Positions 3,351-23,019 of a stretch of 23,900 nt of DNA are shown piece by piece (the first letter of the stretch is position 1; every line of letters begins with the position of its first letter). The DNA is from a virus. The position numbers and the translations under genes are program-made. A model generated the notes under the pieces. It had not been told where the DNA came from. It searched no databases and saw only the letters and a program-made list of their open reading frames with translations. The stretch covers positions 1 to 23,900 of the IMG/VR virus record IMGVR_UViG_3300007346_006318, one strand, 5' to 3'.

Positions 3351-3836
3351 ATGCCCGATATAAAGAAAATAAAACCCAATGGGGACTATAAGTCTGGCTT
3401 ATACGTTCCACAAAACCCGGACAAGTACATTGGTGACGTCCATAACATAATCTGCAGATCTTCTTGGGAATTCAGGTTTTGTCGTTATTGCGATACTAAC
3501 GACAAAATACTTAAATGGAGTTCTGAACCAATCTCTATTCCTTATTACAATCCTTTGGATAAAAAAGAACACCAATATAATGTGGACTTTTATATGCAAG
3601 TTCTAAAGGACGATGAGCAAACTCAGGACTGGATAATAGAGGTCAAGCCAGAGAAGCACTTCAAGAAACCTATCCTTGAAGGAAATTCAACACTCAAGAA
3701 ACTTAAGTCCTACAACCATAAAATGCAGATTTGGATTACCAACCAAGCCAAGTTCAAAGCAGCACAAAGATGGGCAGATGCTAGAGGATACAAATTTGGT
3801 GTGGTTGATGAGAATTTTTTATTTAAAAGCAAGTGA
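3351..3836 (+). CDS. 4: Head completion protein, T4 gp4-like, PD-(D/E)xK nuclease fold
   Basis: This 161-residue protein has the gp4 family pattern: an N-terminal GLYVPQNPDKYIGDV, then RSSWEFRFCRYCD, then WSSEPISIPYYNP, then VDFYMQ and DWIIEVKPEKH. D79, E97 and K99 line up as a PD-(D/E)xK nuclease core. In T4, gp4 (gp50/65) acts after DNA packaging to make heads competent for tail joining; its length (about 150) agrees. The biochemical activity of the nuclease-like core is not settled for the family. The last codons overlap the next gene by 4 nt (GTGA). Confidence 0.88.
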   Translation: MPDIKKIKPNGDYKSGLYVPQNPDKYIGDVHNIICRSSWEFRFCRYCDTNDKILKWSSEPISIPYYNPLDKKEHQYNVDFYMQVLKDDEQTQDWIIEVKPEKHFKKPILEGNSTLKKLKSYNHKMQIWITNQAKFKAAQRWADARGYKFGVVDENFLFKSK

Positions 3837-4438
3837 AACCTTTTGAAGAGCAAATTAAGGACCTAAGAAAGGAATCACAGTCGATTTCTAGCATTTCTAA
3901 GGAATCGAATGATTTGTTTAAGAAAAAATATGGACCGAATGGTTCTGGGGGAAGACTAGAATTCAATGGAGATTTCATACCAGGTAAATTCTATACCTGC
4001 GAATATAAAACGAAAACCAAGATTTCTGATAAAGTTCCCTTTATTGATAGGGAGCCCGTTTTCATCTTTTTGAAAAAAGAGAAGTTCCAATCTGGATCTA
4101 TAGCGGTATCTGTAGATCTTGGTGTCATCCCTCCTGATTATAGGGGTAATATTATGGTTAAGTTGTGGAACCAGTATTATAATATATTTAAGGATAATGA
4201 GTCCTTACCATATACTTCCCAAATTCCCATACAAGGGATCAGTAGGGCATTTGATGCTTTATTAAACGGTACTGGGTGGAAAACTTCTCTTACCGGATTT
4301 AAGCTCGATTTTATGAATAATATAAAGGTTGTGGACTATACTGATCTTGTCAGGATCCCATATCTTTCTGATTTTATGATAGAGGGACAATCCATTAATG
4401 GGATATATAGTGATTATAGATCGAAATTAAATCTCTAA
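3833..4438 (+). CDS. Conserved phage structural-type protein, function unknown
   Basis: A 201-residue protein beginning with GTG in a 4-nt overlap with the gp4-like gene, which supports that start. The N-terminus is a charged helix, followed by a beta-rich middle (GKFYTCEYKTKTK, VPFIDREPVFIFLKKE, VSVDLGVIPPDYRG) and a C-terminus rich in aromatic residues. The stretch VPFIDREPVFIFL loosely resembles a 'PFYDxxPL' segment found in small structural proteins of marine T4-like phages, but I cannot assign a family. Its place between gp4-like and portal genes suggests a head or neck role; that is inference. Confidence 0.75.
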   Translation: MKPFEEQIKDLRKESQSISSISKESNDLFKKKYGPNGSGGRLEFNGDFIPGKFYTCEYKTKTKISDKVPFIDREPVFIFLKKEKFQSGSIAVSVDLGVIPPDYRGNIMVKLWNQYYNIFKDNESLPYTSQIPIQGISRAFDALLNGTGWKTSLTGFKLDFMNNIKVVDYTDLVRIPYLSDFMIEGQSINGIYSDYRSKLNL

Positions 4439-4471: not shown

Positions 4472-6100
4472 ATGGCCGGATTTAACGAAACACCAGAAGG
4501 GAACCCGATATTCCAAAGGATTAGAGAGTCTGTAAAGTCTCTCAGCAATTTTGGTATGAGGTATGGTGATATGGTCATTAAAAATTCACAGGCCATTGGA
4601 TCGATAGAAGCTGATTTTATGAAAAAGCAATCTATCGATGATGAGAGCTTGCTTTATTCCCTCGGTAGACAAGACACGACCACAAGACAATTTATCAGCT
4701 ACTATGATAAGGATTACGCAGGAAAGAGAGATTATCTTAGGAAGTTTGCTCTGAATCCTGAGATAGAGTACATCTTGGATACTGTCTGTGACGAAGCGAT
4801 AACTTTTGATTCATACAACTTCTTTGCATATCCAGCATTTTTAAATCTTACCGATGTAAAGGATAAGATAAAAAACCGTCTGGACGAGAATTATAAGAAT
4901 TTGTATGACATGTTCGGCTTCGGCGATGATATCAGCGGGTGGCAATACTTTAGACAGCTAATGGTCGATGGCTTTCTTGCCTTTGAAATAGTTTATGATG
5001 ACAAAGGTAAGAAGATTATTGGATTTAAGGAATTAGATGCAACTACTCTAATGCCATCTGTTGAAAAGCAGCCTGATGGTACTTATTTGAGTGTTTGGTA
5101 TCAATACCCAAAGGATATCAATAAGAGGAGGATGCTATATGACTCCCAGGTGATTTACATATCATTTGCTAAGGGAAACACAGTTTCTAGGATTAGCTAT
5201 GTCGAAAGACTTATAAGGCCCTACAACATTCTTAGGATAATCGAGTACACTAGGGTAATATGGTCGGTTATGAACGCATCGTTCAGAATGAAAATGACTG
5301 TACCGATTGGATCGAGATCTCCACAGAAGTCTATGCAAACCTTGGGTGAGCTTATGAGTATCTATAAGGAAGATATTAGGTTCAATGATGAGAGTGGGGA
5401 GTTAACAGTAGATGGCAGACCTAAGATACAGTTTTATAAGAATTATCTAATGCCTTCTGGTGTTAATGGAACACCAACGATAGAACCTATTAATAATGCT
5501 GGCCCAAACTTAAACGATCCCCAGCCTCTTGCTTATTTCTACGATAAGCTAGTTCAGGAATCTAAAATTCCTTTTTCTAGGTTCCAAGGTCCTGATGGTG
5601 GATCTATAGGAAACTATTCGAATGGTGCAGAAGGATTGGATAAAGAGGAAATAAGGTTTGGTAAGTTTATTAGTAGGCTTAGATCTATCTTCCAGGATCT
5701 TTTGGTTAAGCCACTTTGGATTCAAATGTGTAAGGATTTTCCGGAGTTGGAGAAGGATTACTTATTTAAGAGTCAACTGGGGTTGGAATATGTTTCTGAT
5801 AATCCATTCAGGGTTAATCAAGAGATAGAAACCATGCTTAAAAAGAAAGAGCAAATTGATGGTATGTATGCTCTTACCGATGATAGCGGTGAGCCTTTCT
5901 TTTCATTGGCTTATCTAATTGAGTCTCATTTGGGAATGACTGAAGATGATATAAAGGCAAATAAGGAAGCTATCAAGAAAAGGAAAGAGGAGGAAAAAAA
6001 GAAAGCTGACGAAGAGGCTAAATCTTCGGAGGAAGAACCCGCAGAGGAAGCTCCAGAAGAATCTCCGGAGGAAACCCCGGAAGAACCCCCACAAGAATAA
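4472..6100 (+). CDS. 20: Portal vertex protein, T4 gp20-like (copy A)
   Basis: A 542-residue gp20-type portal. The N-terminal wing contains DKDYAGKRDYLRKFALNPEI and ILDTVCDEAI, the clip/stem core contains GWQYFRQLMVDGFLAFEIVY and KGNTVSRISYVERLIRPYN, and the C-terminal half has the conserved EEIRFGKFISRLRSIFQDLL. In T4 twelve copies form the ring through which DNA is pumped and from which head assembly starts. The tail of about 45 residues is a low-complexity K/E then E/P run that copy B lacks. The start context (TTTATAAATGG) is A/T-rich with no Shine-Dalgarno. It is 9 nt upstream of a paralogous portal gene, which is very unusual. Confidence 0.9.
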   Translation: MAGFNETPEGNPIFQRIRESVKSLSNFGMRYGDMVIKNSQAIGSIEADFMKKQSIDDESLLYSLGRQDTTTRQFISYYDKDYAGKRDYLRKFALNPEIEYILDTVCDEAITFDSYNFFAYPAFLNLTDVKDKIKNRLDENYKNLYDMFGFGDDISGWQYFRQLMVDGFLAFEIVYDDKGKKIIGFKELDATTLMPSVEKQPDGTYLSVWYQYPKDINKRRMLYDSQVIYISFAKGNTVSRISYVERLIRPYNILRIIEYTRVIWSVMNASFRMKMTVPIGSRSPQKSMQTLGELMSIYKEDIRFNDESGELTVDGRPKIQFYKNYLMPSGVNGTPTIEPINNAGPNLNDPQPLAYFYDKLVQESKIPFSRFQGPDGGSIGNYSNGAEGLDKEEIRFGKFISRLRSIFQDLLVKPLWIQMCKDFPELEKDYLFKSQLGLEYVSDNPFRVNQEIETMLKKKEQIDGMYALTDDSGEPFFSLAYLIESHLGMTEDDIKANKEAIKKRKEEEKKKADEEAKSSEEEPAEEAPEESPEETPEEPPQE

Positions 6101-6109
6101 TAATATAGA

Positions 6110-7714
6110 ATGGCAGGTTTTTTAGATTATGTAGCAGAAAGATCCTTCTTGGGTAACCTGTATAAGAATTTATCCAAGGTTGGAAGGTTTGGAATGGAAT
6201 ACGAAGATATGGTAATTCGTAATTCCCAAGCTGTTGGTGCTACTGAATCTAACTTTTTCAACGAACAGGGAAGTGGATTTACTGAAAACAACGCATTTTA
6301 TTGGACCCTTGGATATCAAGATACGAAGGTTAGAAAATATATTGCCTACTTCGACAAGGACTACATGGGTAAAAGAGACTTCCTTAGGAAATTCTCTTTG
6401 AATGGCGAAATTGATTTTATCCTGGATACACTTACTGATGATGCTATCAATTACGATGACAAAAATTTCTTTAGTTATCCGTCTTTAGCTAACATTGATC
6501 TAAAGCCTAATGTGCTTGATAAGGTAAACGAGACATATCAGAATTTGTATATGCTGTTTGGCTTTCAGCAAAGCATATTAGCTTGGCAATATTTTAAGCA
6601 GTTTTTGATTGATGGGTTTTTGGCTTTTGAGATTGTTTATTCTACTGATGGCAAGAAAATAGTTGGATTTAAAGAATTAGATCCAACCTCCCTTCAACCC
6701 GCTACAGAACAGCAGCCAAATGGTGAATTCCAACAGATTTGGATACAATACCCAGAGGATAATAAAATGACAAGGAAGCTCAGAAGTGAGCAGATCATTT
6801 ATCTTTCGTATGCTAAAGGAAATACAATTTCTAGGGTAAGCTATGTGGAGAGACTTATAAGGTCTTATAACATTCTAAGAATCATGGAAAACACCAGGGT
6901 TATTTGGAATGTGATGAATGCTTCTTACAGACTTAAGTTTGTAATCCCTGTTGGTTCACAGTCTCAGCAAAAAGCGATGCAAACCCTTGGACAGCTAATG
7001 TCTATCTATAAAGAGGAAATGGAAATTAATGATTCCTCGGGTGAACTAACAGTAAACGGTAGACCTAAGGTTCAGTTTTATAAGAATTATCTTTTCCCTG
7101 AGAAAGATGGACAATCCCCACAGATTGAAACCCTTGATCCCAATGGACCAGATTTCAATGTTATGGATAATGTTATTTACTTCTATAACAAGCTTAAACT
7201 GGATTCGAAAATACCTTATGCAAGGTTTGCTTTCCGAAATGGTACCCCGGCTAACTATCAAATAAGTATAGATCAGCTAGAAAGGGATGAAATTAGGTTT
7301 GAGAAATTCTTAACAAGACTAAGATCGATCTTCCAAGAAATATTGGTCAAACCTCTTTACATACAAATGTGTTTGGACTTCCCAGAATTAGCTAAGGATA
7401 GATCATTCAAAGCAAATCTGGGCCTAAGTTATGTAAGAGAAAACCTTTTCGAGGAGTTTATTCAATTGCAAAACTATACAAAACGCACCCAGTTTATAAA
7501 TGACCTTGGTGAAATGAAGCAAAAGATTGGCGAGGAAGAGGAATCTTATTTTGACAAAGAATTCCTGATTAAAAGGTATCTCGGTTTAACTATGGACGAA
7601 TATAAGAAGAACGAGAAATATAAGGAAGCTGAAGCTAAGCTTGCTGAGGAAAAAGCTAAGGAAGCCGGATCTGAGGGCGGAGAGGAAGGCGGAGGCGAGT
7701 CATTCACCCTATAA
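6110..7714 (+). CDS. 20: Portal vertex protein, T4 gp20-like (copy B, paralogue)
   Basis: This 534-residue protein aligns with copy A along nearly its full length. Matching blocks include DKDYMGKRDFLRKFSLNGEI, QYFKQFLIDGFLAFEIVY, AKGNTISRVSYVERLIRSYN, TVNGRPKVQFYKNYL and DEIRFEKFLTRLRSIFQEIL, with roughly 60% identity by eye in the central part. Both frames are intact and free of stops, so neither looks like a decaying copy. The C-terminus differs: a short A/E/K helix followed by a G/E-rich end (GSEGGEEGGGES) instead of the E/P tail. The DNA is diverged at synonymous sites as well, so the duplication is not recent. Confidence 0.9.
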   Translation: MAGFLDYVAERSFLGNLYKNLSKVGRFGMEYEDMVIRNSQAVGATESNFFNEQGSGFTENNAFYWTLGYQDTKVRKYIAYFDKDYMGKRDFLRKFSLNGEIDFILDTLTDDAINYDDKNFFSYPSLANIDLKPNVLDKVNETYQNLYMLFGFQQSILAWQYFKQFLIDGFLAFEIVYSTDGKKIVGFKELDPTSLQPATEQQPNGEFQQIWIQYPEDNKMTRKLRSEQIIYLSYAKGNTISRVSYVERLIRSYNILRIMENTRVIWNVMNASYRLKFVIPVGSQSQQKAMQTLGQLMSIYKEEMEINDSSGELTVNGRPKVQFYKNYLFPEKDGQSPQIETLDPNGPDFNVMDNVIYFYNKLKLDSKIPYARFAFRNGTPANYQISIDQLERDEIRFEKFLTRLRSIFQEILVKPLYIQMCLDFPELAKDRSFKANLGLSYVRENLFEEFIQLQNYTKRTQFINDLGEMKQKIGEEEESYFDKEFLIKRYLGLTMDEYKKNEKYKEAEAKLAEEKAKEAGSEGGEEGGGESFTL

Positions 7715-7724: not shown

Positions 7725-8732
7725 ATGGATCTAAAGGATCTCCTGTCTTCAAAGAAAATTCTGGTAGTTGGTGATGTTATATTAGACCATTACATCTATG
7801 GTAAGGTTTATCGGGTTTCTCCGGAAGCACCAGTACCTGTAGTGCTAAAATCAAATTCAACATATTGTTTGGGTGGATCAGCAAATGTCGCCCAAAACGT
7901 TTCTTCTTTCGGGTCTGAATGCTGGCTTCTAGGTGTTTATGGTAATGACCAGGGATCTGTAGAGATCGACAATCTTCTCGGTGAGAAGAATATACACTCG
8001 CTTATGATAACCGATATCTCTAGACCAACCGTAGAAAAAACCAGGGTTATTGGGAATAGTCATCAGATTGTTAGAATAGATTCCGAGACAAGTGACCCGT
8101 TGACATCTGATATCCAGGATGAGGTATTGGAATCTTTTAACAACATTATACACCAGATGGACGGTGTTATTATACAAGACTATGGAAAGGGAATGCTTAG
8201 TGGGGAGCTTATAAGTAAGATAACTGATATCTGCACCGAGCTGGAAATCCCTACTCTGACTGATCCTAAGGATAGAGATTTTTCCAAATATATTGGATCT
8301 ACCTGGATAAAACCAAATCTTAGTGAGTTTAAGTCATCTCTTAATATTCCACAGCCTGAAGCAATTGACTTAAAACGTACCACGAAACTCATGGATTCTT
8401 TGATGGACTCTTTTGGTTTTAGAGGAGTTTTGCTTACCCTTTCCGAGGATGGTATGATGTTAAAGACGAATTCAGATTTTGAACAGGTCGATGGAATCCA
8501 AATAGAGGTAACTGACGTTTCTGGAGCGGGTGATACAGTTAGTGCTGTTTTCATGCTTCTGCTAACAAATAACGTCTCTTATCTCGATTGCTTGAGAATA
8601 TCAAATCTTGCTGGTTCCCTGGTTTGTCAAGTATCCGGAGCAGTACCGGTAGATTCCAATAACCTTTATATGACACTTCTTAAAAATTCTTGGGTTATCA
8701 CAAGCCTTTCTGGAGAGCCCATTTTGATTTAG
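7725..8732 (+). CDS. PfkB-family sugar kinase, D-glycero-beta-D-manno-heptose-7-phosphate kinase (HldE kinase domain)
   Basis: A 335-residue ribokinase/PfkB enzyme closely resembling the N-terminal kinase domain of HldE (RfaE). Visible motifs are VVGDVILDHYIYG, the HldE-typical RVSPEAPVPVV (residues 30-40), the first PfkB signature GGSANVAQN (50-58), QDYGKGML, IKPNLSEF and the second signature DVSGAGDT (264-271) with catalytic D270. Family members phosphorylate heptose 7-phosphate to the 1,7-bisphosphate on the way to ADP-heptose for lipopolysaccharide. The nucleotidyltransferase half of HldE is absent, so this is a stand-alone kinase domain. It sits 10 nt after a portal gene and is out of place in a head module; a host-derived auxiliary metabolic gene is the likely reading. 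A related sugar kinase is the alternative. Confidence 0.85.
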   Translation: MDLKDLLSSKKILVVGDVILDHYIYGKVYRVSPEAPVPVVLKSNSTYCLGGSANVAQNVSSFGSECWLLGVYGNDQGSVEIDNLLGEKNIHSLMITDISRPTVEKTRVIGNSHQIVRIDSETSDPLTSDIQDEVLESFNNIIHQMDGVIIQDYGKGMLSGELISKITDICTELEIPTLTDPKDRDFSKYIGSTWIKPNLSEFKSSLNIPQPEAIDLKRTTKLMDSLMDSFGFRGVLLTLSEDGMMLKTNSDFEQVDGIQIEVTDVSGAGDTVSAVFMLLLTNNVSYLDCLRISNLAGSLVCQVSGAVPVDSNNLYMTLLKNSWVITSLSGEPILI

Positions 8733-8737
8733 ATCAT

Positions 8738-8768
8738 TTTTTTAGTACGTTTTGGTTTCTTAGATTTG
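8738..8768 (+). promoter_or_regulatory. Candidate Bacteroidota-type promoter for the ligase/replication block
   Basis: The box TTAGATTTGT contains TAGATTTG (8761-8768), a fit to the Bacteroidota -7 consensus TAnnTTTG, with a T-rich stretch at the -33 distance in place of the usual TTTG. It lies 17 nt before the ligase ATG. A matching arrangement (CG-TTT, T/C tract, TTAGNTTTGT) occurs before the gene at 15872. Confidence 0.5.
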
Positions 8769-8785
8769 TATTATAATAAAAGCAT

Positions 8786-10132
8786 ATGAAGAAGGAACTG
8801 GAGATATTTATGGAGATAGAAAGCCTTTCTGGTAATGGATCTCAGAAGGTAAAGCAAACACTCATTTCAGAGAATTTGTCTAATGAAATGGAATACCTTT
8901 TGGATGTTTGCTTCAATCCATTTATTACAACAAAGCTCCACAAGCTGAATCTTAATACACATACTCCTGGAAGAAAATACCAGAGAGACCCTGAGGAGTT
9001 TTGGAACACATTTAAAACCTTGGTGGAAGAGCTTAAAGCTGCACCTGCTGCAAATGATTCCCTTAGACAAAGGGCTGAGGATCTTCTTGAACACACTTTT
9101 GATCCCGACAGCGATGTTGATCTGGGTATAAGGAAGATGCTCATGAAAGTCCTAACTAAAAGGATGAATATCGGGCTAGGTGCTAAGTTGATCAATAAAG
9201 CAGTTGGGTCTGAGATTATCCCGGATCCGTCTTTAATGCTTGCAACTGATAAGCAGGAGGAGATTGAAACCTGGGACAAAATCTATTGTGAAGAGAAGTA
9301 TGACGGTGTTAGGGTTATAGCTATGATGAATCCTGACAGGTCATTCTCTTTTTATACACGTGCATTCAATGAGCTAGACTCTTCCAAATTAAGCAAGATT
9401 GCGAAGGACCTTTCCACAATCTCAGATAAGGCTGGTCACACTAATGTATTTTATGATGGTGAGCTAACAGATTTCGATAGAAAGTCAGTTTCTGGAAAGG
9501 TAACTCAGATTTTAAAAGGAACAGCCCCTGATAATATAGATGACAATTTCCTTTTTAATGTGTTTGACTTGGAGGACAATGCAACACTTGAAAAAGGCAA
9601 GGGCTCTGTACTGTATACAGAGAGAAGAAGGTCTCTTGCAGAGACGTTGAACTTTCTACCTGAGGATTCCAACATTAGGCTCGGTCAGATGTGGGAGGTA
9701 GATTCTATGGAGGATACCCTGATAATCTATAAGGATATCGTTTCTAAAGGTGGTGAGGGGGTTATTTGCAAGAATGATCATTTGTATGAGTGCAAAAGAA
9801 GCAAAAGCTGGATTAAGCTTAAAGAAGTAAATGATTGCGACTTAGAGGTAGTTGGATGGTATCCAGGAGAGGGTAAAAGAGAGGGATTCATAGGAGGACT
9901 TATTTGTACTGACCAATCAAAAACACTAAACGTAAAAATTGGTGCAGGATTTACCGATCTCGATCTTGAGACATTGAGTCAAAATCCAGATGATTTGATC
10001 GGTAGAATTGCTGCTGTTCAATACAATGTGCCTATCACGGATAAGCATCAAAATCGAAGCTTATTCCTGCCAAGATTTATTGAGATTAGAACTGATAAGA
10101 TGTTCCCCGACGACCTCTCTAACTTGTTCTAA
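8786..10132 (+). CDS. 30: ATP-dependent DNA ligase, T4 gp30-like
   Basis: A 448-residue ligase that seals nicks using ATP through an adenylated lysine. The nucleotidyltransferase motifs are in order: motif I EEKYDGVR with K171 as the adenylation site, motif III FYDGELTD, motif IIIa FLFNVFDLED, motif IV GGEGVICKN and motif V SWIKLKEV. Residues 1-165 form the helical DNA-binding domain and the last 100 residues the OB-fold (VVGWYPGEGKREGFIGGL). Length is close to T4 ligase (487). It has its own candidate promoter upstream and a strong terminator directly downstream, so it may be a separate transcription unit. It would join Okazaki fragments together with the RNase H encoded at 12274. Confidence 0.95.
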   Translation: MKKELEIFMEIESLSGNGSQKVKQTLISENLSNEMEYLLDVCFNPFITTKLHKLNLNTHTPGRKYQRDPEEFWNTFKTLVEELKAAPAANDSLRQRAEDLLEHTFDPDSDVDLGIRKMLMKVLTKRMNIGLGAKLINKAVGSEIIPDPSLMLATDKQEEIETWDKIYCEEKYDGVRVIAMMNPDRSFSFYTRAFNELDSSKLSKIAKDLSTISDKAGHTNVFYDGELTDFDRKSVSGKVTQILKGTAPDNIDDNFLFNVFDLEDNATLEKGKGSVLYTERRRSLAETLNFLPEDSNIRLGQMWEVDSMEDTLIIYKDIVSKGGEGVICKNDHLYECKRSKSWIKLKEVNDCDLEVVGWYPGEGKREGFIGGLICTDQSKTLNVKIGAGFTDLDLETLSQNPDDLIGRIAAVQYNVPITDKHQNRSLFLPRFIEIRTDKMFPDDLSNLF

Positions 10133-10146
10133 ATGGGAAACTTAAG

Positions 10147-10181
10147 GCTCTTTTTTCTGTACAAGAATAAAGAGCTTTTTT
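10147..10181 (+). terminator. Rho-independent terminator after the ligase gene
   Basis: GCTCTTT (10147-10153) pairs with AAAGAGC (10169-10175); after one T-T mismatch the stem continues for 4 bp around a GTACA loop, and six T (10176-10181) follow. It begins 14 nt after the ligase stop. Its T tract runs straight into the ATG of the next gene (10182), so the hairpin also occupies that gene's ribosome-binding region. Confidence 0.8.
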
Positions 10182-11129
10182 ATGATAGACCAACTCCTCA
10201 CAGAGAAGTTAAGACCCAAACAAATCAAGCATATGATCCTTCCAGACAGGATCAGAAAATTGTTCGACGAAAAGGGGCTTAACCATAATGTTTTATTAGC
10301 AGGATCTCCTGGGTGTGGAAAGACAACTTTAGCAAAGATTCTTTCCAACGATCTCCCACACATTTTTATAAATGTATCTGACGAGAGCTCCGTTGATACC
10401 ATCAGGACCAAGATAAATGAATTCTGTTCTACCATGAGTATCATGGATGGGAAGTCATCTAAAAAAGTGGTTGTACTGGATGAGTTTGATGGTGCTTCTG
10501 ATCAATTCTATAAGGCATTAAGGGGAACAATCGAAAAGTTTGCTTCCAATACTAGGTTTATTGCAACCTGTAATTGGCTGAATAAAGTACCAGAAGCTAT
10601 TCAAAGTAGGTTTGAGGTTATCAATTTCGATCCGATAAATCAAGCAGAGGAGGAGTTTTTACGAAATGAATGGAGAAGTAGGATCAAGCTAATTCTTGGG
10701 AAGTTGAGCATCTCTATTGACGATGCATCTCTTGATGAGTTTGAGAAGGAGTACTTCCCGGATCTTAGATCTTCCCTAAACCGAATCCAATCCTGGGTTA
10801 TCGAAGGAGTTCAAACAATTGATATTTCTAGGGTAAGGGATTCTGGCTGGTCATATGATGATCTCTACAATATGATCTTTTCTTCTAAGGATCCGATTGG
10901 TAATTACCAGGTGATAGTTGGTCAATATTCATCTAAGGTCGATGATGTTATGGCTGCTTTAGGTGAGGAGTTTATACAATGGATCATGAAGAATAAATCT
11001 ACGTACGCTAAGATTATTCCAGCAGTAGTAGTTGAGGTTGCTCATCACCAGGCACAGAGACAACTGGTTATTGATCCAGTAGTGAGTTTGTTGTCTCTGA
11101 TTTTTAAGATACAAAAACTAGTAGACTGA
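10182..11129 (+). CDS. 44: Sliding-clamp loader ATPase subunit, T4 gp44-like (RFC small-subunit type)
   Basis: A 315-residue AAA+ ATPase, close to T4 gp44 (319). Walker A is AGSPGCGKTTLAK (40-52), Walker B VVVLDEFD (96-103), sensor 1 TCN (129-131) and the clamp-loader SRC-type arginine motif is QSRF (141-144). The N-terminal LTEKLRPKQIKHMILP is typical of clamp loaders. It loads the sliding clamp at primer ends, needed for replication and, in T4, for late transcription. The ATG directly follows the T tract of the ligase terminator with no leader in between. It overlaps the next gene by 1 nt (TGATG). Confidence 0.93.
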   Translation: MIDQLLTEKLRPKQIKHMILPDRIRKLFDEKGLNHNVLLAGSPGCGKTTLAKILSNDLPHIFINVSDESSVDTIRTKINEFCSTMSIMDGKSSKKVVVLDEFDGASDQFYKALRGTIEKFASNTRFIATCNWLNKVPEAIQSRFEVINFDPINQAEEEFLRNEWRSRIKLILGKLSISIDDASLDEFEKEYFPDLRSSLNRIQSWVIEGVQTIDISRVRDSGWSYDDLYNMIFSSKDPIGNYQVIVGQYSSKVDDVMAALGEEFIQWIMKNKSTYAKIIPAVVVEVAHHQAQRQLVIDPVVSLLSLIFKIQKLVD

Positions 11130-11419
11130 TGGATTTATTACCTGAAGAAATAAGAAAGAACACTTACCTCTATAAATTTTATAAAAGAGGTGAAAGAGCA
11201 ATGATGTATGAACAAATAGAGCCAAGCACTGGACAAACAGTAGGGTTTGAGATATTTAAGAGAAAGATAGACAAACCAAAGGTAGTATTTGGTATCCAAT
11301 TGAATGAGAGAGAAATCTTTCCAGGAAACGAGGATTTTGGTAAATGGGCATGGTCCATTACTGATGAGGGAAGAGCTCTAGAAAGATTTAACCTAATTGA
11401 GAGTCAAACCGATGAATAA
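11129..11419 (+). CDS. Small hypothetical protein
   Basis: A 96-residue soluble-looking protein I do not recognise. It starts in a 1-nt TGATG overlap with the clamp-loader gene, which supports both the start and translational coupling. The sequence is charged, with a probable beta hairpin (MMYEQIEPSTGQTVGFEIFK), a central VVFGIQLNEREIFPG and an acidic C-terminus. Its stop overlaps the start of the membrane-protein gene. Being inside the clamp-loader/nuclease operon suggests a replication-linked role, but nothing in the sequence proves it. Confidence 0.75.
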   Translation: MDLLPEEIRKNTYLYKFYKRGERAMMYEQIEPSTGQTVGFEIFKRKIDKPKVVFGIQLNEREIFPGNEDFGKWAWSITDEGRALERFNLIESQTDE

Positions 11420-11756
11420 GCAGGGACTAGTATTTTTCTTAATTATAGCCCTTGCACAATCCGGTGCATGGTTCCAGCAGTTTTCCCAAGTGAGATGGGA
11501 ATGGTTTAAAAACAACAACTGGTTTAATATTGGTATCCTTGGAATTCTCCTTTCTATACTTTTTGTGTATGGTGCAAGAATTGGGTACACTGCCTGGGAA
11601 AGTGTTTGGAAAGTTCGATTGATACAATTTTCGATTGGAGCATTTGTCGTATCCTTTTGGAGTTGGATAATACTAGGAGAGGGTGTGAATTTAAAGACTT
11701 TTGTTTGTTTGATCCTAGCATTGATGATTATCCTTATTCAGGTTTTTTGGAAATAG
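11412..11756 (+). CDS. Four-helix membrane protein with DMT/SMR-like fold (DUF486-like)
   Basis: A 114-residue integral membrane protein with four hydrophobic segments at about 5-21, 35-57, 68-88 and 91-113. The pattern ARIGY before the third helix and SFWSWIILGEGVNLKTF between helices three and four resembles the small DMT-superfamily proteins (DUF486, and more distantly SMR transporters such as EmrE); the acidic residue essential in EmrE helix 1 is Q here. I chose the ATG at 11412 over an in-frame TTG at 11397 because it gives the usual N-terminus and a short overlap with the upstream gene. A holin is an alternative for a small phage membrane protein, but four helices and this motif favour the DMT type. 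Confidence 0.7.
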   Translation: MNKQGLVFFLIIALAQSGAWFQQFSQVRWEWFKNNNWFNIGILGILLSILFVYGARIGYTAWESVWKVRLIQFSIGAFVVSFWSWIILGEGVNLKTFVCLILALMIILIQVFWK

Positions 11757-11759
11757 AAT

Positions 11760-12281
11760 ATGAAAAGGCTTATTATAGTAGGTAAAGGTGGTTCAGGTAA
11801 AGATCATCTTAGGAAAAAACTAGAAGACAGAGGATTTAAATATTGTGTATCTCACACAAGCAGGCCACCGCGCCACGGAGAAATTGACGGGAAGGATTAT
11901 CACTTTATATCCCTGGATACTGCAATCCATGAATTTATTGAAACCAATAGATTCTATGAGCATGTTATTTTCAATGGCTGGGTTTACGGTACTTCTCTTG
12001 ACGAATTTAACTCGAGTAATCTTTTTATTATGACACCCTCTGGTTTGTCTTCTATGAAACCCAGAGATAGGGAAGAGTCTTTTGTGGTTTATTTGGATAT
12101 AGCCGAGGATGTAAGAAGGTCTCGATTATCTAAAAGAAACGATGCTGATAAGCTTGAAAGAAGGCTTCAAGCAGACTATGATGACTTTAAGAACTTTTTT
12201 GATTATGACGAGAGGATTACTGATCCTTTATTTGACAGTGTAGGTGATTGGGGAAATTTAAAATTTTATAGCAATGATTAA
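11760..12281 (+). CDS. Guanylate-kinase-like nucleoside monophosphate kinase
   Basis: A 173-residue P-loop kinase. The P-loop is GKGGSGKDHL (residues 8-17), with Asp where guanylate kinases have Ser/Thr after the lysine. The GMP-binding stretch SHTSRPPRHGEIDGKDYHF is very close to the guanylate kinase motif, and NGWVYGTS corresponds to the YGTS motif. A lid-like arginine cluster (RRSRLSKRNDADKLERRL) follows. It should phosphorylate a (d)NMP, probably dGMP or GMP, to feed phage DNA synthesis. Substrate specificity cannot be read from the sequence. It overlaps the RNase H gene by 8 nt. Confidence 0.82.
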   Translation: MKRLIIVGKGGSGKDHLRKKLEDRGFKYCVSHTSRPPRHGEIDGKDYHFISLDTAIHEFIETNRFYEHVIFNGWVYGTSLDEFNSSNLFIMTPSGLSSMKPRDREESFVVYLDIAEDVRRSRLSKRNDADKLERRLQADYDDFKNFFDYDERITDPLFDSVGDWGNLKFYSND

Positions 12282-13410
12282 CGTACTTATTGACGGAAAC
12301 TACATATTTCATAAAACATTTGGTGTTTTTGGTGGATATGGGAATAAAAACCCTGGCGATATCTTAGGAACCCAAAATGAGCAGTCAATGTTTATTAGAA
12401 AAATATCGACTGACCTAACATCATCCCTCAGATCTATTCCTATTGGGGGAAAGCTAGTTTTTACTGTTGACAGTAGAAGTTGGAGAAAGGATGTTGAAAT
12501 TGAAGGTGGAGGTTATAAATCCAACAGGGTGAAGGACGAGGAAGTTGATTGGAGTGTTTTCTTTAACCTCCTTACTTCTTACGGGGAACACCTTGAAAAA
12601 ATGGGATTTATATTTTCCAAAGTAAATGGGGCTGAAGGTGATGATTTGCTTTATTTCTGGGCTGATTACCTAAATACCAAGGGTGAAAATTGTATCATCA
12701 TTTCGGGGGATAAGGATTTACATCAGCTGGCTAGATGGAAAAAAGATAATTGGACCATAGTTTGGAACGCAAATTCTAAAAACAATATTCTCTCTGTGCC
12801 CGAAGGCTGGGAGGATAACTGGCTTAATAAAAACACAGAGGCAAGTGTATTTGATATGGGCAGTGTAATGGACCCAGATAAAGATAAGCTTAAGGAATTT
12901 ATTAAGAAGGTTGAAGTAAATGAAATTAATCCTAGGGATTTCATTTTCATTAAAATGCTTGTTGGTGATAAGGGAGATGCTGTCCCAGGTATATGGGAGG
13001 TACAAGCAGGATCAAAAACCCAAAGAGTTACCCCCAAGAAAGCTGAGACTGTTATGGAATCCTTGCAATCAACACAATGGGCTAAACTTCCCTTTGCTGA
13101 ACTTATTGAAGACGACCAATTCCTGGAGTGGACTGCAGGCTATTGTATTAGACTTCTCAAGGATATAGACAGCAAGGATAATCGGGAAAAAGCTGCTGAG
13201 AATCTAAAAAGAAATTATAAACTCATGTGGTTGGACAAGACCGTAATCCCACAGGAGGTAATTCAAGGAACCGTAGAGGAATTAAAAAGAGGAATATCCT
13301 TGCCTAAAAAATCTATTACCCTTGATAGGGTGAAGATTCTTGAGGGAACAAGCTGGATAAGCTCACAAAATGCTCCTAGCCAATTTGACCCCTTTAAAAA
13401 CTTTGGATAA
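12274..13410 (+). CDS. rnh: RNase H / 5'-3' flap exonuclease, T4 Rnh-like (FEN1 family)
   Basis: A 378-residue FEN/PIN-type nuclease. The metal-binding acidic residues are D7 (VLIDGNY), D66 (FTVDSRS), E121, D123 and D124 (GAEGDDLLYFWADYL) and D146, D148 (IISGDKDLHQL). A helix-three-turn-helix DNA-binding motif follows (LVGDKGDAVPGIW). Such enzymes remove RNA primers and flaps from Okazaki fragments before ligation. It is longer than T4 RNase H (305), with an insertion around residues 160-215. The start lies 8 nt inside the upstream kinase gene and the stop overlaps the next start (TAATG), showing a coupled operon. Confidence 0.9.
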   Translation: MINVLIDGNYIFHKTFGVFGGYGNKNPGDILGTQNEQSMFIRKISTDLTSSLRSIPIGGKLVFTVDSRSWRKDVEIEGGGYKSNRVKDEEVDWSVFFNLLTSYGEHLEKMGFIFSKVNGAEGDDLLYFWADYLNTKGENCIIISGDKDLHQLARWKKDNWTIVWNANSKNNILSVPEGWEDNWLNKNTEASVFDMGSVMDPDKDKLKEFIKKVEVNEINPRDFIFIKMLVGDKGDAVPGIWEVQAGSKTQRVTPKKAETVMESLQSTQWAKLPFAELIEDDQFLEWTAGYCIRLLKDIDSKDNREKAAENLKRNYKLMWLDKTVIPQEVIQGTVEELKRGISLPKKSITLDRVKILEGTSWISSQNAPSQFDPFKNFG

Positions 13411-13835
13411 TGGAATTATTTGATGTAGTTAAAACAATTTTCAAGAAGGATAAAGACTGGGATAAGGTTTCCAGGAACGATAAGGTTAGAAATTTCTTTA
13501 TGATTAATCGGATAATGTCCATCCAATTTCCTATCCAGGCGGATCAGTTCAACCACACAAAGATTTTACCAAGGCCTGTTGTGGATTGGTGGCACGACAC
13601 GCTGAGCAAGCATTATACCAGAATGCCTGGTTGGATCTTCACCAAAACCAAAAAATCCAAAAATAAGACAGCCCCAACCTCCGATATTGAGATCGATAAA
13701 TCTATCGAGGAGTTTGTAGCAAACAAGTACGAGGTATCATTAAGAGACCTTTCTGATCTGAAAAGATTCTATCCGGAAAAATATGAGAATTGGATGAGAT
13801 CTATAGGGGAACAAGTCACTATGATGAAAAAGTGA
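13410..13835 (+). CDS. 62: Probable clamp-loader small subunit, T4 gp62-like
   Basis: A 141-residue protein whose arrangement matches the gp62 family of T4-like marine phages: FFMINRIMSIQFPIQADQFN near residue 30, then a tryptophan/basic region (MPGWIFTKTKKSKNK), then a C-terminal helix pair (EEFVANKYEVSLRDLSDL). gp62 is the non-ATPase partner of gp44. In T4 the two genes are adjacent; here four genes lie between them. The assignment rests on pattern, not on a catalytic motif, so an unrelated small replication protein remains possible. Confidence 0.55.
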   Translation: MELFDVVKTIFKKDKDWDKVSRNDKVRNFFMINRIMSIQFPIQADQFNHTKILPRPVVDWWHDTLSKHYTRMPGWIFTKTKKSKNKTAPTSDIEIDKSIEEFVANKYEVSLRDLSDLKRFYPEKYENWMRSIGEQVTMMKK

Positions 13836-13841
13836 TTGTGT

Positions 13842-13851
13842 GATATATAAG
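13842..13851 (+). promoter_or_regulatory. Late-promoter-like box GATATATAAG
   Basis: The box lies in the 38-nt gap before the gene at 13874, with 32 nt from its first base to the ATG. The same ten-mer with almost the same spacing recurs at 17400 and a near-identical one at 20979. It resembles the T4 late consensus TATAAATA read by gp55. Confidence 0.5.
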
Positions 13852-13873
13852 ATGTTCCCTAATTAGATTTTTT

Positions 13874-14413
13874 ATGAGAAATGATTTCAGGAAATTAATA
13901 GAAAAGGTATTGTCTAGTTTAGATTGGGATACCATTTTTGAAATACACAAAGTTTTTAAATTCGGAGTTGGTGAGGGTAGCGAAGTAATTCCTGGACTGA
14001 AAAGAAAGATCTATAGCGAGGATCTTACTAAGAATGATGTTAAAAACGAACTCAAGTCCCTACTTAGATTTGTAATCAATAACGACGTTTCTAAATTTGG
14101 ATATGGACCGTGGATGATTACCTGGTTTAATCAGGATTGGGATATTATTTTCAACAATGAGTCTGAGGAGGATTTTGGTGATGACGAGTTGGATGATATT
14201 CAATTCGATTCAAGACTAGAGGTTGTTTATGCTCCACAGCGTATTTGTCTCACTGTTAATGCCGCTCCTGATGCTAAGGAAGAGATTTCTTCGGAGGAAA
14301 GTGTGCTAAATAAAATGCTCAAAAAAGCTCTTAAGTCCGAAAATTATGAACTTGCTGGAAAAATCCAGGAAATCTTAGATGAAAAGAAATCTAAGGAGAG
14401 TTCAGATAAATAG
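13874..14413 (+). CDS. Hypothetical acidic protein
   Basis: A 179-residue protein of unknown function. Residues 1-60 are helical; the middle (GYGPWMITWFNQDWDIIF) is aromatic and followed by a strongly acidic stretch (ESEEDFGDDELDD). The C-terminal helix pair, LNKMLKKALKSENYELAGKI, resembles a UVR motif (UvrB/UvrC interaction hairpin), but such helical hairpins also arise by chance. The ATG directly follows six T, as in the genes at 10182 and 17430. A late-type promoter box precedes it, so late expression is likely. Confidence 0.75.
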   Translation: MRNDFRKLIEKVLSSLDWDTIFEIHKVFKFGVGEGSEVIPGLKRKIYSEDLTKNDVKNELKSLLRFVINNDVSKFGYGPWMITWFNQDWDIIFNNESEEDFGDDELDDIQFDSRLEVVYAPQRICLTVNAAPDAKEEISSEESVLNKMLKKALKSENYELAGKIQEILDEKKSKESSDK

Positions 14414-14429
14414 TATAAATAAATTTATC
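14405..14429 (+). promoter_or_regulatory. T4-type late promoter TATAAATA within an inverted repeat
   Basis: TATAAATA (14414-14421) is an exact match to the T4 late promoter consensus. It is flanked by the inverted repeat GATAAAT (14405-14411) and ATTTATC (14423-14429), and lies 9 nt before the TTG start at 14431. The short distance to the start would leave almost no leader. Confidence 0.5.
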
Positions 14430-14430
14430 C

Positions 14431-14913
14431 TTGAGGTACATTAAAACCATAAATGAATTTTTTGACGTTGGTGTTTTTGGAGACACCTACGGATATGGTG
14501 GGGCAAATGGTATATTCAAGGTTCAATATAAGCCTTATAAGGATCTTTCCGTTTCTGTTGGTCCTGATCCAAATGTAAAGAGGAATGTAAGAGGATCACA
14601 ATTTCAGGTTGGTGATATTGTTATTGGACAGCCTGTAGATTCTGAGAAGAAAGTTGCTGGAATGATCGTTAGAGCTGAAAGAGCCCCTGACAACAAATCC
14701 TATAAGTATTTCGTTCAGGTTCACACTAAAGGAAAGGACACAGAGGAGGTATTAGAGCTTATCCCGGATTCGGTTGAATTCGTTGACAATGGCGATAAAG
14801 GGCATAAGCAAATTATCTCTCACTTTAAGCTGGATACCATGCCGGGTGGGGTTTACAATTCTCCTACTGTTTACAACAACACAAAACTTGGCATCGAGGC
14901 TATAGGAAGTTAG
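14431..14913 (+). CDS. Hypothetical protein with capsid-targeting-like N-terminus
   Basis: A 160-residue protein I do not recognise. It appears to start at TTG, giving MRYIKTINEFFD, a short amphipathic peptide with an INE site like those cut by T4-type prohead proteases ((L/I)xE) and like the N-terminal peptides of T4 internal head proteins. Residues about 55-115 look like a beta barrel (GSQFQVGDIVIGQPVDSEKK, then VAGMIVRAER, then YFVQVHTKGKD). No catalytic motif is seen. The late-type promoter in front fits a virion protein. Confidence 0.7.
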   Translation: MRYIKTINEFFDVGVFGDTYGYGGANGIFKVQYKPYKDLSVSVGPDPNVKRNVRGSQFQVGDIVIGQPVDSEKKVAGMIVRAERAPDNKSYKYFVQVHTKGKDTEEVLELIPDSVEFVDNGDKGHKQIISHFKLDTMPGGVYNSPTVYNNTKLGIEAIGS

Positions 14914-14947
14914 AAACTTTCATTCTTTTTACTGCTAAGATGTATTG

Positions 14948-15826
14948 ATGATTCTAAGCAGGAACTTAAACAAAATAGGCTACATTAACAGGGAGATACC
15001 TCAATCCCTGGAAGGTGTTTCGCAGTTCCTATCTTTGATCCTAGATAACCTAAAACTTGATAGTGATAGAGGTATTCCTGTATCGTGCTTTGAGGTTCCT
15101 CAGGGATTCCAAGTTTTGGATTTTTCATCTATTGAAGAAGGGTCTGACGAGTCCTCTAAGGTGTGGGAGATTTTCCAATTCCTTAAAAGTAGTAAGCAAA
15201 GGATTTTCTTTTACTTGCCTAATTACTATTTCTTAGGTAGCCAAATACCAGAAGTGGTTGAAACTACCAGAGGAATGATTTCATCCCTTTGCTCTTTTTT
15301 GGAGCAGGTTGGTGTCAGGGAAACCTCGGTTGTTATTAGAATTGGTAGTGCTTATGGTGCAAGAAAAGCTACCATGGATAGATTTTGTAGCGAGATTAGA
15401 TCCTTCGATAAAACAACAATTGCAAAGCTTTCTGTTTGTAATGATGAAAAACCAAGTCTCTTCTCGGTAACAGACCTTTTAAGTGGAGTCTTCTATCAGG
15501 TTGGAATACCTATCGCCTTTAGATTTCTACCGCATCAGTTTAATAATGGTGGACTTTCGGTTAGGGAAGCTTATTTTCTTGCTGTCTCGACGTGGGATAA
15601 AAACCAAGTCCCCGTTTTCTTTCACTCAGAGTCCGAAGAAGTTGATGAGAATGGTTACTCATTATCACCTTCACCCTCGTTAAAACTGAGACACCGAATA
15701 CCCACTTTTGGACTTGAGATTGATGTTATCTTGGATTCTTCTGACGGCCTTTCCACTTGTGCAAATTACCTAGGTAATTATCTTTCCCTTAAGCCTATGG
15801 TAATTAATAAAGTTAGTAAGAAATAA
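14948..15826 (+). CDS. UvdE-like TIM-barrel protein with altered metal site
   Basis: A 292-residue protein that follows the UV damage endonuclease (UvdE/UvsE) layout: ISRN/IGYINR-type start, VVIRIGSAYGARKATMDRF, LSVCNDEKPSLFSVTDLL, GIPIAFRF, AVSTWDKN and DVILDSSDG. UvdE nicks DNA 5' of UV photoproducts using a cluster of metal ions. Here most ligand motifs differ: YLPNYYF (89-95) stands where HPGQF is expected, R131 replaces the His of IHxG, CNDE (164-167) replaces ENDD and RFLPHQ (192-197) replaces the DxHH motif. It may be inactive, bind DNA only, or use another chemistry. I chose ATG 14948 over the preceding in-frame TTG. Confidence 0.7.
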   Translation: MILSRNLNKIGYINREIPQSLEGVSQFLSLILDNLKLDSDRGIPVSCFEVPQGFQVLDFSSIEEGSDESSKVWEIFQFLKSSKQRIFFYLPNYYFLGSQIPEVVETTRGMISSLCSFLEQVGVRETSVVIRIGSAYGARKATMDRFCSEIRSFDKTTIAKLSVCNDEKPSLFSVTDLLSGVFYQVGIPIAFRFLPHQFNNGGLSVREAYFLAVSTWDKNQVPVFFHSESEEVDENGYSLSPSPSLKLRHRIPTFGLEIDVILDSSDGLSTCANYLGNYLSLKPMVINKVSKK

Positions 15827-15857
15827 TTTTTATTAGCGTTTGTTTTCCTTAGTTTTG
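15827..15857 (+). promoter_or_regulatory. Candidate Bacteroidota-type promoter before the DNA glycosylase
   Basis: TTAGTTTTGT contains TAGTTTTG (15850-15857), fitting TAnnTTTG, with a T-rich stretch at 15827-15830 at the -33 distance. It lies 14 nt before the ATG at 15872. It shares the order CG-TTTG-TTTTCC-TTAGNTTTGT with the region before the ligase gene (8747-8770). Confidence 0.5.
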
Positions 15858-15871
15858 TGTAAAACAAGAAT

Positions 15872-16651: not shown

Positions 16652-16655
16652 AAAT

Positions 16656-17363: not shown

Positions 17364-17388
17364 GATTTCCCTTTATTTAAATCCTCCT

Positions 17389-17429
17389 GGGATTGTTTGG
17401 ATATATAAGATTCAAATAATCCCTTTTTT
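17389..17429 (+). terminator. Rho-independent terminator with a late-promoter-like box in its loop
   Basis: GGGATTGTTTG (17389-17399) pairs with CAAATAATCCC (17413-17423) over 11 positions with one G-A mismatch, followed by six T (17424-17429). The 13-nt loop is GATATATAAGATT and contains GATATATAAG (17400-17409), the putative late-promoter box. The T tract runs directly into the GTG start of the next gene at 17430. Confidence 0.75.
17400..17409 (+). promoter_or_regulatory. Late-promoter-like box GATATATAAG inside a terminator loop
   Basis: Identical to the ten-mer at 13842-13851 and placed 30 nt before the start codon at 17430, against 32 and 34 nt for the copies at 13842 and 20979. Confidence 0.5.
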
Positions 17430-21012: not shown

Positions 21013-23019
21013 ATGAACGAGTCTTTATTGAATGAAAACCTCCTTTTTATTCTTGAAAAACAAGATAATAATCTTGATGTTTCAAAGGATGGTGCTGAAA
21101 ATGGCTATGTACTGAAAGGTATAGCAGCTCAATTTGGCAAGGAGAACAATAACAATAGAATATACGAGGAAGGTGAATACCTGCCTCACCTTGAATATCT
21201 AAAGGATAAGATAGGACAGAAGAGATTGGTTGGTGAATTAGATCACCCCGAAAAATTCGATGTCTCTCTTAAAAACATTTCTCACGTTGTTGAGGATCTA
21301 GTTTATGATAAAGACGGAAGAGTATTAAACATTAAAGTTCGTTTGCTTGACACTCCAGCAGGACAAATTGCTAAAAAGCTTGTTGATGCTGGTATACCTC
21401 TTTCTATTTCATCTAGAGCAGCTGGAAATGTTGGTCCGGATAAGAAAGTCCAGATCAAAAAAATCTTTACATATGATCTAGTAGCTGATCCTGGTTTTCA
21501 GGACGCACAGCTCGAGAGGGTTTACGAAAGCGCTGGTTTTGATGCTTTTGAATTTGAAGAAAGATCAAAAAAGTCTGTAGTAAACAACTTAGAGTGTGTA
21601 AACGAATCGCTAGGGCTAGAAAATGAATCTAGTGTAAAGATATATAAAGTTGAAAATAGCGAAGAATTCGAAAAAATCCTTAATCAAGACAAAAATAAAT
21701 CCAACATTATGGAGGCCAACAAAGAATATGTTACTGCTGACGAGCTTAACAAGTATTCTATCTTTTTGAAAAATAAGATGGATGAGCTGGAAACGCAGAT
21801 TTCTGAAATGAAACAACAAGAAGCTCAGGTATCTGAGAGTGAAACTGACAGTGTAGACTGTAAAGCTCTGGAAGAAAGAGTTGCTAAACTTGAAAAGTAT
21901 TCAGAATATCTTGCTGAAAACCTAGAGAGTGCTATTAAGTACGGTGAGTACCTAGCAGAAAATCTAGATAGCAGCATTACTTATTCGAAGTATTTAGCTG
22001 AAAACCTAGATAAGACTATTTCTTATTCTAAGTATTTGGCTGAAAATGTTGATAAGGGTATTTCATATTCAGAGTACGTGGCTGAAAATGTTGATAAGGC
22101 AATCGATTATTCTAAGTATCTTGCTGAAAAGCTAGATGATGGAATTCAATACACAGAGTATGTTGCTGAGAATCTTGATAAGAACATCGCTTATTCAGAA
22201 TATCTAGCAGAGAATGTTGATAAGAACATTGCTTACTCTGAATATTTGGCTGAGAATCTTGATAAAGGAATTTCTTATTCTGAATACCTTGCAGAAAACC
22301 TTGATAAAGGTATTGCTTATTCTGAGTACATCGCAGAAAAGCTTGATCAAGGTATCAACTATACAGAGTACCTTGCAGAAAACCTAAACAAAGGAATTGC
22401 TTACTCTGACTATTTGGCTGAAAAGCTAAATGGAAACATAGCTCAAACTGAAGCTATTCACGAAAGTGCTAAAACTCAAGTTTCTCCTTCTCTAAATGAG
22501 AACGCAAGAGAAACTGCTGAAAGCGCTTCACAAACTGAATTGGTCGAATCAGGATTTGCTGGAGATTACGAAAATCTCGGAAGCAAGATTGATTCTCTAA
22601 TTGAATCGGTCAAGACACAAAAGACTGAGGAAAACATAAACGAGGCTAATACGAAAGTACAGCCAACTGCTCAAACACAAAAAGCAGATGAGGCAATCAA
22701 CGAAGCCGAAGAAACTGTGGTAGAATCATCAGGTCACAAATTTATTGATGAAATGCCAGAAGATTATGCTCCGATTTGGGAGTCACTAAATGAAAGTCAA
22801 AAGCAATCAATCATTGCACAATCAGCTTTCTATAATTTAGAGACAAACTATCAGATCAAGAATTTCTGGTCAACTCGTCAGCTTGGTGCTAAGCCAGTAG
22901 GTTTACAGAAACTTCAAGAAAGCCAAGAAACACCAGAGCCTAAGACGGCTTCAAACCCCCAGGGGTACTCAAATGATTACCTTAATTGGGTCGCTAAGTC
23001 GCTCGAAGGTAAGTTTTAA
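21013..23019 (+). CDS. 21: Prohead protease (T4 gp21-like) fused to a scaffold-like repeat domain (gp22-like)
   Basis: A 668-residue protein. Residues 30-172 match the T4 gp21 protease: LKGIAAQFGKENNNNRIY, GELDHPEKFD with H78 as the likely catalytic His, and GIPLSISSRAAGNVG with the nucleophile Ser among S131-S134, then DLVADPGFQDA. From about 233 the protein becomes a charged helical region: a coiled coil (EERVAKLEKY) and then thirteen 14-residue repeats of type YSEYLAENLDKGIA (296-477), a low-complexity linker and a folded end. This part corresponds in position and character to the scaffold gp22. In T4 these are separate genes. A possible internal start at M233 (ATG 21709) could give the scaffold alone. 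The major capsid gene follows after 23 nt. Confidence 0.87.
   Translation: MNESLLNENLLFILEKQDNNLDVSKDGAENGYVLKGIAAQFGKENNNNRIYEEGEYLPHLEYLKDKIGQKRLVGELDHPEKFDVSLKNISHVVEDLVYDKDGRVLNIKVRLLDTPAGQIAKKLVDAGIPLSISSRAAGNVGPDKKVQIKKIFTYDLVADPGFQDAQLERVYESAGFDAFEFEERSKKSVVNNLECVNESLGLENESSVKIYKVENSEEFEKILNQDKNKSNIMEANKEYVTADELNKYSIFLKNKMDELETQISEMKQQEAQVSESETDSVDCKALEERVAKLEKYSEYLAENLESAIKYGEYLAENLDSSITYSKYLAENLDKTISYSKYLAENVDKGISYSEYVAENVDKAIDYSKYLAEKLDDGIQYTEYVAENLDKNIAYSEYLAENVDKNIAYSEYLAENLDKGISYSEYLAENLDKGIAYSEYIAEKLDQGINYTEYLAENLNKGIAYSDYLAEKLNGNIAQTEAIHESAKTQVSPSLNENARETAESASQTELVESGFAGDYENLGSKIDSLIESVKTQKTEENINEANTKVQPTAQTQKADEAINEAEETVVESSGHKFIDEMPEDYAPIWESLNESQKQSIIAQSAFYNLETNYQIKNFWSTRQLGAKPVGLQKLQESQETPEPKTASNPQGYSNDYLNWVAKSLEGKF
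21639..21651 (+). promoter_or_regulatory. Internal copy of the late-promoter-like box
   Basis: GATATATAAAGTT here is identical to the 13-mer before the protease gene. It lies within the coding sequence (peptide KIYKVE) 70 nt upstream of an in-frame ATG at 21709 that would start the scaffold-like domain. It may drive separate scaffold expression. Confidence 0.4.
21709..23019 (+). other. Candidate internally initiated scaffold protein
   Basis: An in-frame ATG (M233 of the fusion) begins MEANKEYVTADELNKYSIFL, which marks the boundary between the protease and the helical scaffold-like part and reads like a natural N-terminus. The product would have 436 residues. Phage lambda makes its scaffold Nu3 from an internal start within the protease gene C, so there is precedent in another system. 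No direct evidence of use is visible apart from the promoter-like box upstream. Confidence 0.4.
21898..22443 (+). repeat. Thirteen in-frame 42-bp repeats encoding YSEYLAENLDKGIA units
   Basis: The stretch holds exactly thirteen units of 42 bp with no indels, encoding residues 296-477 of the protease-scaffold fusion. Tyr at positions 1 and 4, Ala-Glu at 6-7 and Ile at 13 are nearly invariant, while position 2 (S/T/G), 8 (N/K) and 10-12 vary. The DNA copies differ at many synonymous sites, so the repeats are old and kept by selection on the protein. Confidence 0.95.

Follow-up and report, generated by a model that had tools for sequence, protein, structure and literature searches.

Two diverged gp20-like portal genes retained in tandem by a clade of uncultured T4-like phages

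Introduction

The portal is the ring that DNA passes through on its way into and out of the viral head. Portal rings are taken to consist of one kind of subunit, and their symmetry mismatch with the five-fold capsid and the motor is a long-standing question in the study of DNA packaging. According to structural work on bacteriophage T4, this phage has one portal gene, whose product alone makes up the dodecameric portal (PMC4493910). Here, two adjacent gp20-like portal genes, termed A and B, were studied in the IMG/VR virus record IMGVR_UViG_3300007346_006318, the whole of which (23,900 bases) was analyzed and is called the window below. Judged from sequence, A and B are two co-conserved, differently specialized portal genes. 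Text searches of a literature collection without bioRxiv and with few subscription papers turned up no natural two-gene portal, and we know of none.

Results

The initial annotation of the window had described two intact, full-length gp20-like genes lying 9 nucleotides apart, and this was borne out by the open reading frames, by the Pfam Portal_T4 profile (PF07230) and by PHROG 213, which both proteins match. Of the 433 positions of the Pfam profile, A matched positions 7–432 (200.5 bits) and B positions 9–432 (206.2 bits), the cut-off being 22.9 bits. Domain borders were taken from the sections of the T4 structure paper that describe them (PMC4493910) and placed by alignment, and the term tag denotes the C-terminal motif [F/I]-[T/K/R/S]-L. 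The features of the pair are:

4472..6100, plus strand: portal gene A, 542 amino acids, gp20-type, N terminus MAGF, E/P-rich C-terminal tail, untagged
6110..7714, plus strand: portal gene B, 534 amino acids, gp20-type, N terminus MAGF, C terminus ending ESFTL
6101..6109, plus strand: 9-nucleotide gap between the A stop codon (TAA) and the B start, without a promoter- or terminator-like site
5450..5467, plus strand: inner-clip segment of A, residues 327–332 (T4 gp20 336–341)
7094..7111, plus strand: inner-clip segment of B, residues 329–334
5564..5644, plus strand: tunnel loop of A by alignment, residues 365–391 (T4 374–398), final residue K391
7208..7285, plus strand: tunnel loop of B by alignment, residues 367–392, final residue R392
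6026..6097, plus strand: E/P-rich tail of A, residues 519–542, predicted local distance difference test score (pLDDT) under 50, without tag
7703..7711, plus strand: C-terminal tag of B, Phe-Thr-Leu

Alignment of A with B by BLASTP gave 265 identical and 372 similar residues over 525 positions, that is, 50% identity overall. An identity of about 60% in the core, as first annotated, holds for the wing, the clip and the second wing part, where the mean A–B identities in clade I (the subclade that includes the window) are 57%, 59% and 64%, respectively; the corresponding means are 79% for the first stem helix, 36% for the second stem helix, 35% for the tunnel loop and 25% for the crown. The two tails do differ as had been claimed, being E/P-rich in A and G/E-rich with the Phe-Thr-Leu end in B. 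Loss of the stem or clip from one copy would have counted against the initial reading, but the alignment indicates that both copies extend across stem, clip, wing and crown, and the conserved columns of stem and clip are present in A as well as in B. The N-terminal segment reads M-A/P-G-F in nearly all A proteins and M-A/S-G-F in all distinct B proteins.

AlphaFold2 models built on alignments of 48 (A) and 47 (B) rows reached moderate confidence (pLDDT 68.7 for A and 61.0 for B; predicted template modelling score 0.57), the weakest parts being the N terminus, parts of the clip, the tunnel loop and the tail; in B, most of clip residues 258–355 fell under a pLDDT of 50. The best structural match of both models was T4 gp20, by Foldseek as by VIA-align, and the VIA-align Z scores, 23.0 for A (436 residues) and 23.1 for B (347 residues), were tied with other T4 entries. 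Both copies are thus predicted to have the portal fold, comprising wing, stem, clip and crown, the clip of B being assigned from sequence.

The distribution of the pair was surveyed in IMG/VR using the best 80 of 201, 142 and 183 matches to A and B, and two subclades were found, clade I and the deeper-branching clade II, in which the A proteins are 54–58% identical to the clade I query. Among the 196 loci of this dual-portal clade (window included; several loci share one contig), 187 displayed two portal frames, two displayed three and seven displayed one. All seven one-frame loci are cut by a contig end, and 189 of the 196 show at least two frames. The three-frame loci each carry one split copy: in L053 (11629–13247) B lies in two overlapping frames, and in L237 (6001–7614) A lies in two frames three bases apart, both of which are possibly sequencing errors. 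The order A then B, assigned by score, was seen in 185 of the 187 two-frame loci; in the exceptions, L285 and L286, B is shortened by the contig end and scores slightly higher with A. When dual-clade records were searched whole, exactly two portals were found in 21 of 21 and then in 7 of 7 (28/28). Every stretch of sampled DNA of sufficient length retains both portals, and the clade members are large, uncultured T4-like phages.

Outside this clade a single portal was the rule. One portal was present in 85 of 85 loci of single-portal relatives and in 74 of 75 further loci (159/160 in total, 97 of the 160 having at least 2 kb on either side of the portal), the lone exception, L325, being one gene split in two. 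Single-lineage records had one portal in 12 of 12 cases, and five of six huge-phage records had one, the sixth, LR756501, having one plus a short fragment. This fragment, in a 735-kb phage, is a 101-amino-acid frame at LR756501.1 15166–15351 (minus strand) that resembles the C-terminal end of a portal and lies well away from the full portal gene. A tblastn search of GenBank phages gave matches at 1175 places in 1173 records for A and at 2129 places in 2127 records for B. In each search both extra places are explained by LR756501 and LR756503, which have two apiece, so that no other GenBank phage record shows a second gp20-like gene at tblastn sensitivity. The survey of related phages suggested at the outset thus located the tandem pair throughout two subclades and saw none in single-portal relatives, and recurrence in many contigs of different metagenomes means that the pair is not an assembly artefact of the window record. 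A genome scan for hosts returned three distant metagenome-assembled loci with one portal each and no host for the dual-portal clade.

The A–B spacing ranged from 2 to 23 nucleotides among 54 distinct pairs, with varying relation of the reading frames. In the window the two genes are in the same frame, and their fusion by read-through was considered and ruled out because neither spacing nor frame is conserved among relatives. A scan of the surroundings of the pair, covering sigma-70-type sites only, found no excess of promoter- or terminator-like sites over shuffled sequence.

A careful tree of 52 rows (support given as bootstrap/Shimodaira–Hasegawa-like approximate likelihood ratio test) grouped the A proteins of both clades (100/97), the B proteins of both clades (97/92) and A together with B (100/100), apart from the single-portal rows, and a larger quick tree agreed with this grouping. 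The pair therefore most likely arose by one tandem duplication, before clades I and II split, on the evidence of these groups, and crown gaps specific to A and to B in both clades agree with this. Independent duplications in the two clades were 39–42 log-likelihood units worse and were only modestly rejected by the approximately unbiased test (P = 0.057 for clade II on the quick tree; P = 0.039 for clade II and 0.034 for clade I on the careful tree). Gene conversion was also tried as an explanation and rejected, A–B identity being 0.495 within genomes vs 0.497 between genomes; within one genome, A and B are 47–52% identical.

The two copies are constrained alike. In 14 chosen near pairs, the proportions of nonsynonymous (pN, 0.04–0.10) and synonymous (pS, 0.70–0.89) differences were alike for A and B, while the ratio of nonsynonymous to synonymous rates (dN/dS) was computable in only 3 of 28 comparisons, at 0.02–0.05, because synonymous sites were saturated. 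By these measures A and B are under similarly strong purifying selection. Across 45 dereplicated genomes the mean distance was 0.307 for A and 0.315 for B, the distances of the two correlated with r = 0.990, and the branching of the A tree is broadly mirrored in the B tree. In 19 clade I genomes, required to have two separate portal frames of more than 480 amino acids, the A–B correlation was 0.943, and that of A was 0.869 with gp2, 0.831 with gp4, 0.821 with gp55, 0.763 with the ligase and 0.425 with the PfkB kinase. The partial correlation of A with B given gp4, gp2 and ligase was 0.593; that of A with gp4 given gp2, ligase and B was 0.274. By these distances, A and B evolve in step.

The differences between A and B were mapped as fixed differences, meaning columns that are conserved among the A proteins and among the B proteins but differ between the two. 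Over T4 positions 336–398, a channel region made up of the inner clip, the channel loop, the second stem helix and the tunnel loop, 19 of 36 doubly conserved columns are fixed differences in clade I, the remainder of the core having 23 of 168 (Fisher P = 1.6e-6); in clade II the counts are 15 of 29 and 22 of 149 (P = 4.3e-5). For the tunnel loop alone, the clade I counts are 8 of 14 vs 47 of 228 (P = 0.004). The mean net charge of the tunnel loop is +2.0 (clade I) and +3.0 (clade II) in B, +0.4 and -1.4 in A, and -0.5 in single portals, and the core of B is more positive than that of A in both clades. The final residue of the tunnel loop, Arg in the family (T4 R398), is kept in T4, in 21 of 21 single-portal rows and in 28 of 28 B rows, as well as in all three of the far huge phages and in two of the three Bacteroidota T4-like rows; in A it is Lys throughout clade I (21 of 21 rows) and Gln throughout clade II (8 of 8 rows). 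At one inner-clip position, Lys is found in 16 of 21 single-portal rows; the window A has Gly instead, and B retains the Lys (K332; conserved in all 21 B rows of clade I). Strictly A- or B-specific columns common to both clades are few, numbering seven. Two candidate differences were set aside: a clip-tip charge difference (T4 292), where Gln is fixed in B of clade I only (21/21) and not of clade II, and a longer tunnel loop in A, which amounts to one residue in clade I only.

The C-terminal tag was scored in 68 distinct pairs with both stop codons, near-copies included. Apart from a basal member, clade I carries the tag on B only (52 of 52 distinct pairs), whereas clade II carries it on A only (14 of 15); in the basal member, L261, both copies are tagged. 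No tag occurs in 116 distinct single-portal rows, 84 of which end in a hydrophobic residue. From this distribution, both copies were probably tagged ancestrally, and each clade would have lost the tag from a different paralog. The channel features of A that are common to both clades, such as the loss of the Arg, most simply predate these tag losses, so that tag and channel traits assorted independently.

The pair sits in a head-gene neighborhood. On the plus strand of the window, gp55-, gp4- and gp2-like genes are followed by A and B, next by a stretch in which DNA-metabolism genes predominate and, after that, by a prohead protease:

3351..3836, plus strand: gp4-like head closure gene
3833..4438, plus strand: gp2-like DNA end protector gene
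21013..23019, plus strand: Peptidase_S77 prohead protease domain in a 668-amino-acid protein

In counts over records that may be fragments, a single Gp23-type major capsid gene was found in 20 of 22 related records, and the other two, which are shorter contigs, gave none. A single large terminase was likewise found in 16 of 17 records, with no match in the remaining one. No record gave more than one gp14-like neck match (found in 12 of 17, above cut-off in 5). Where both matches were present, the distance from portal B to the capsid gene was 14–17 kb in 12 of 12 dual-portal records, and that from portal to capsid gene was 2–3 kb in 8 of 8 single-portal records.

In the window, the corresponding interval after B (7725–21012) holds kinase, ligase, clamp-loader, nuclease and other genes. 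The PfkB kinase gene adjoining B (7725–8732) most closely resembles the HldE heptose-7-phosphate kinase domain (297 bits, against an NCBI cut-off of 345 that it does not reach), and its mean distance of 0.53 is far above the portal distances. Adjoining genes at 14945–16651 resemble the ultraviolet damage endonuclease UvsE and formamidopyrimidine-DNA glycosylase, both under NCBI cut-offs. Two large genes, 23–2758 (911 amino acids; searched with PHROGs and Pfam, with one sub-cut-off Pfam match) and 18236–20947 (903 amino acids; searched with Pfam and NCBIfam), gave no confident family match. In the 668-amino-acid protein the protease domain spans residues 24–141 and a long extension matches a plant repeat model; this protein is perhaps a protease–scaffold fusion.

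Discussion

To account for the pair, the initial annotation had suggested that the two proteins build a mixed ring, that they are used in alternative particles or that one of them has a new role. It is the mixed ring that the evidence favors: co-conservation, in-step evolution, the reciprocal loss of the tag and the finding of just one capsid gene and one terminase gene make it fairly probable that A and B share one portal ring, a natural heteromeric portal. In the proposed scheme, a single tandem duplication of the portal gene in the ancestor of the clade would have been followed by co-assembly of A and B into a dodecamer, probably at about 6:6. Since the N-terminal segment, wing and clip are kept in both, both could touch capsid and motor. 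The channel would have specialized, with B providing a positive tunnel loop with the family Arg and A a near-neutral or negative loop from which the Arg was lost. The C-terminal tag would be needed on some subunits only, either paralog being able to carry it, and reciprocal tag loss is what would be expected if both proteins were in one ring of which only part needs the tag. By analogy with the T4 layout, the tag would lie inside the head. A stricter version, with six A and six B alternating in six-fold symmetry, B loops gripping the DNA, A loops serving as neutral spacers and the internal tag on one subunit type, is put forward tentatively.

Several points weigh against a shared ring. We infer the mixing of A and B from sequence evidence, and T4 meets the symmetry mismatch by flexing of identical subunits. 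In-step evolution is in part shared inheritance, because linked genes correlate too. The tag pattern may stem from just two loss events, and one clade II locus, L284, lacks the strict tag on either copy, its A ending in DITI. The channel region was picked after the domain table had been viewed, and the fractions of fixed differences at the N terminus and crown are raised too; for the tunnel loop alone, the clade II counts (4 of 10 vs 41 of 202) are not significant (P = 0.23). The split copies in L053 and L237 count on the same side. Finally, T4 portals with C-terminal green fluorescent protein (GFP) are described, in excerpts of that study, as holding heads unexpanded unless DNA is packaged (PMC9958956), so that blocking half of the C termini has an effect there.

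Two separate homomeric rings with different jobs, be it the tail vertex and the start of head assembly or a second kind of particle, would suit the finding that both proteins are complete portals by sequence and best fold match, and channel differences would be expected if each ring were tuned to its own task. Yet the one Gp23 and one large terminase gene, where found, give no hint that shell or motor has been doubled, the 2–23-nucleotide spacing suggests joint expression, and the independent assortment of tag and channel identity between the clades would require a swap of roles, which leaves separate rings rather unlikely. We regard it as more unlikely still that one copy is the portal and the other keeps the fold as a neck, inner-head or assembly protein outside the ring. 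The absence from A of the family Arg in both clades and the untagged A of clade I would fit such a division, but similar purifying selection and mean distances, stem and clip columns and an N-terminal segment conserved in both copies, and the lack of any lost or visibly relaxed domain in either speak against it.

Expression of A and B as alternatives under different conditions, each as a homododecamer, is very doubtful: both are intact, and differences in regulation can preserve such duplicates, but the tandem order, the short spacing, promoter- and terminator-like sites no commoner than in shuffles (in the sigma-70-type scan) and the absence of single-copy loss from loci long enough to judge all argue otherwise. 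Least credible, and hardly to be entertained, is a recent duplication, a gene-conversion pair or a functionless assembly artefact; the two loci with a split copy (B in L053, A in L237) point that way, against which stand the old divergence within genomes (47–52% identity), the lack of conversion and the many contigs from different metagenomes, and the survey itself.

The two retained, specialized subunits amount to a natural experiment on what each portal subunit requires. The N-terminal segment, the wing and the first stem helix are suggested to be needed on every subunit, and the tunnel-loop charge and the C-terminal tag to be allowed on some subunits only. The pair thereby offers a testable hetero-ring for studies of packaging and ring size.

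The closest relatives by sequence outside the clade are the uncultured phage LR756500 (462 kb; 44% identity), the IMG/VR loci L142–L226 and L292–L366, and the Prevotella Lak phages (35–36% identity), which, unlike the dual-portal clade, have one portal each. A probable duplication of a head gene with specialization within one particle is described for T4 in parts of the same GFP study, where the vertex protein gp24 is a probable duplicate of the capsid protein gp23 (PMC9958956); gp24, however, occupies other shell positions, whereas A and B are proposed to share one ring, and the records checked here have at most one Gp23-type match. Rings of mixed subunits are themselves reported in these excerpts, GFP fusions at up to about half of the T4 ring positions leaving prohead function intact (PMC9958956), although these are laboratory constructs of one gene and not a natural pair; deletion of the T4 tunnel loop alters ring size, according to the passages concerned (PMC9958956, PMC4493910). 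T4 gp20 (PDB 3JA7, 6UZC; PF07230) resembles A and B in belonging to the same family by profile, in being the best fold match for both and in lying near gp2- and gp4-like genes, upstream of the prohead protease. It differs in being one gene, where the dual-portal clade keeps two diverged copies.

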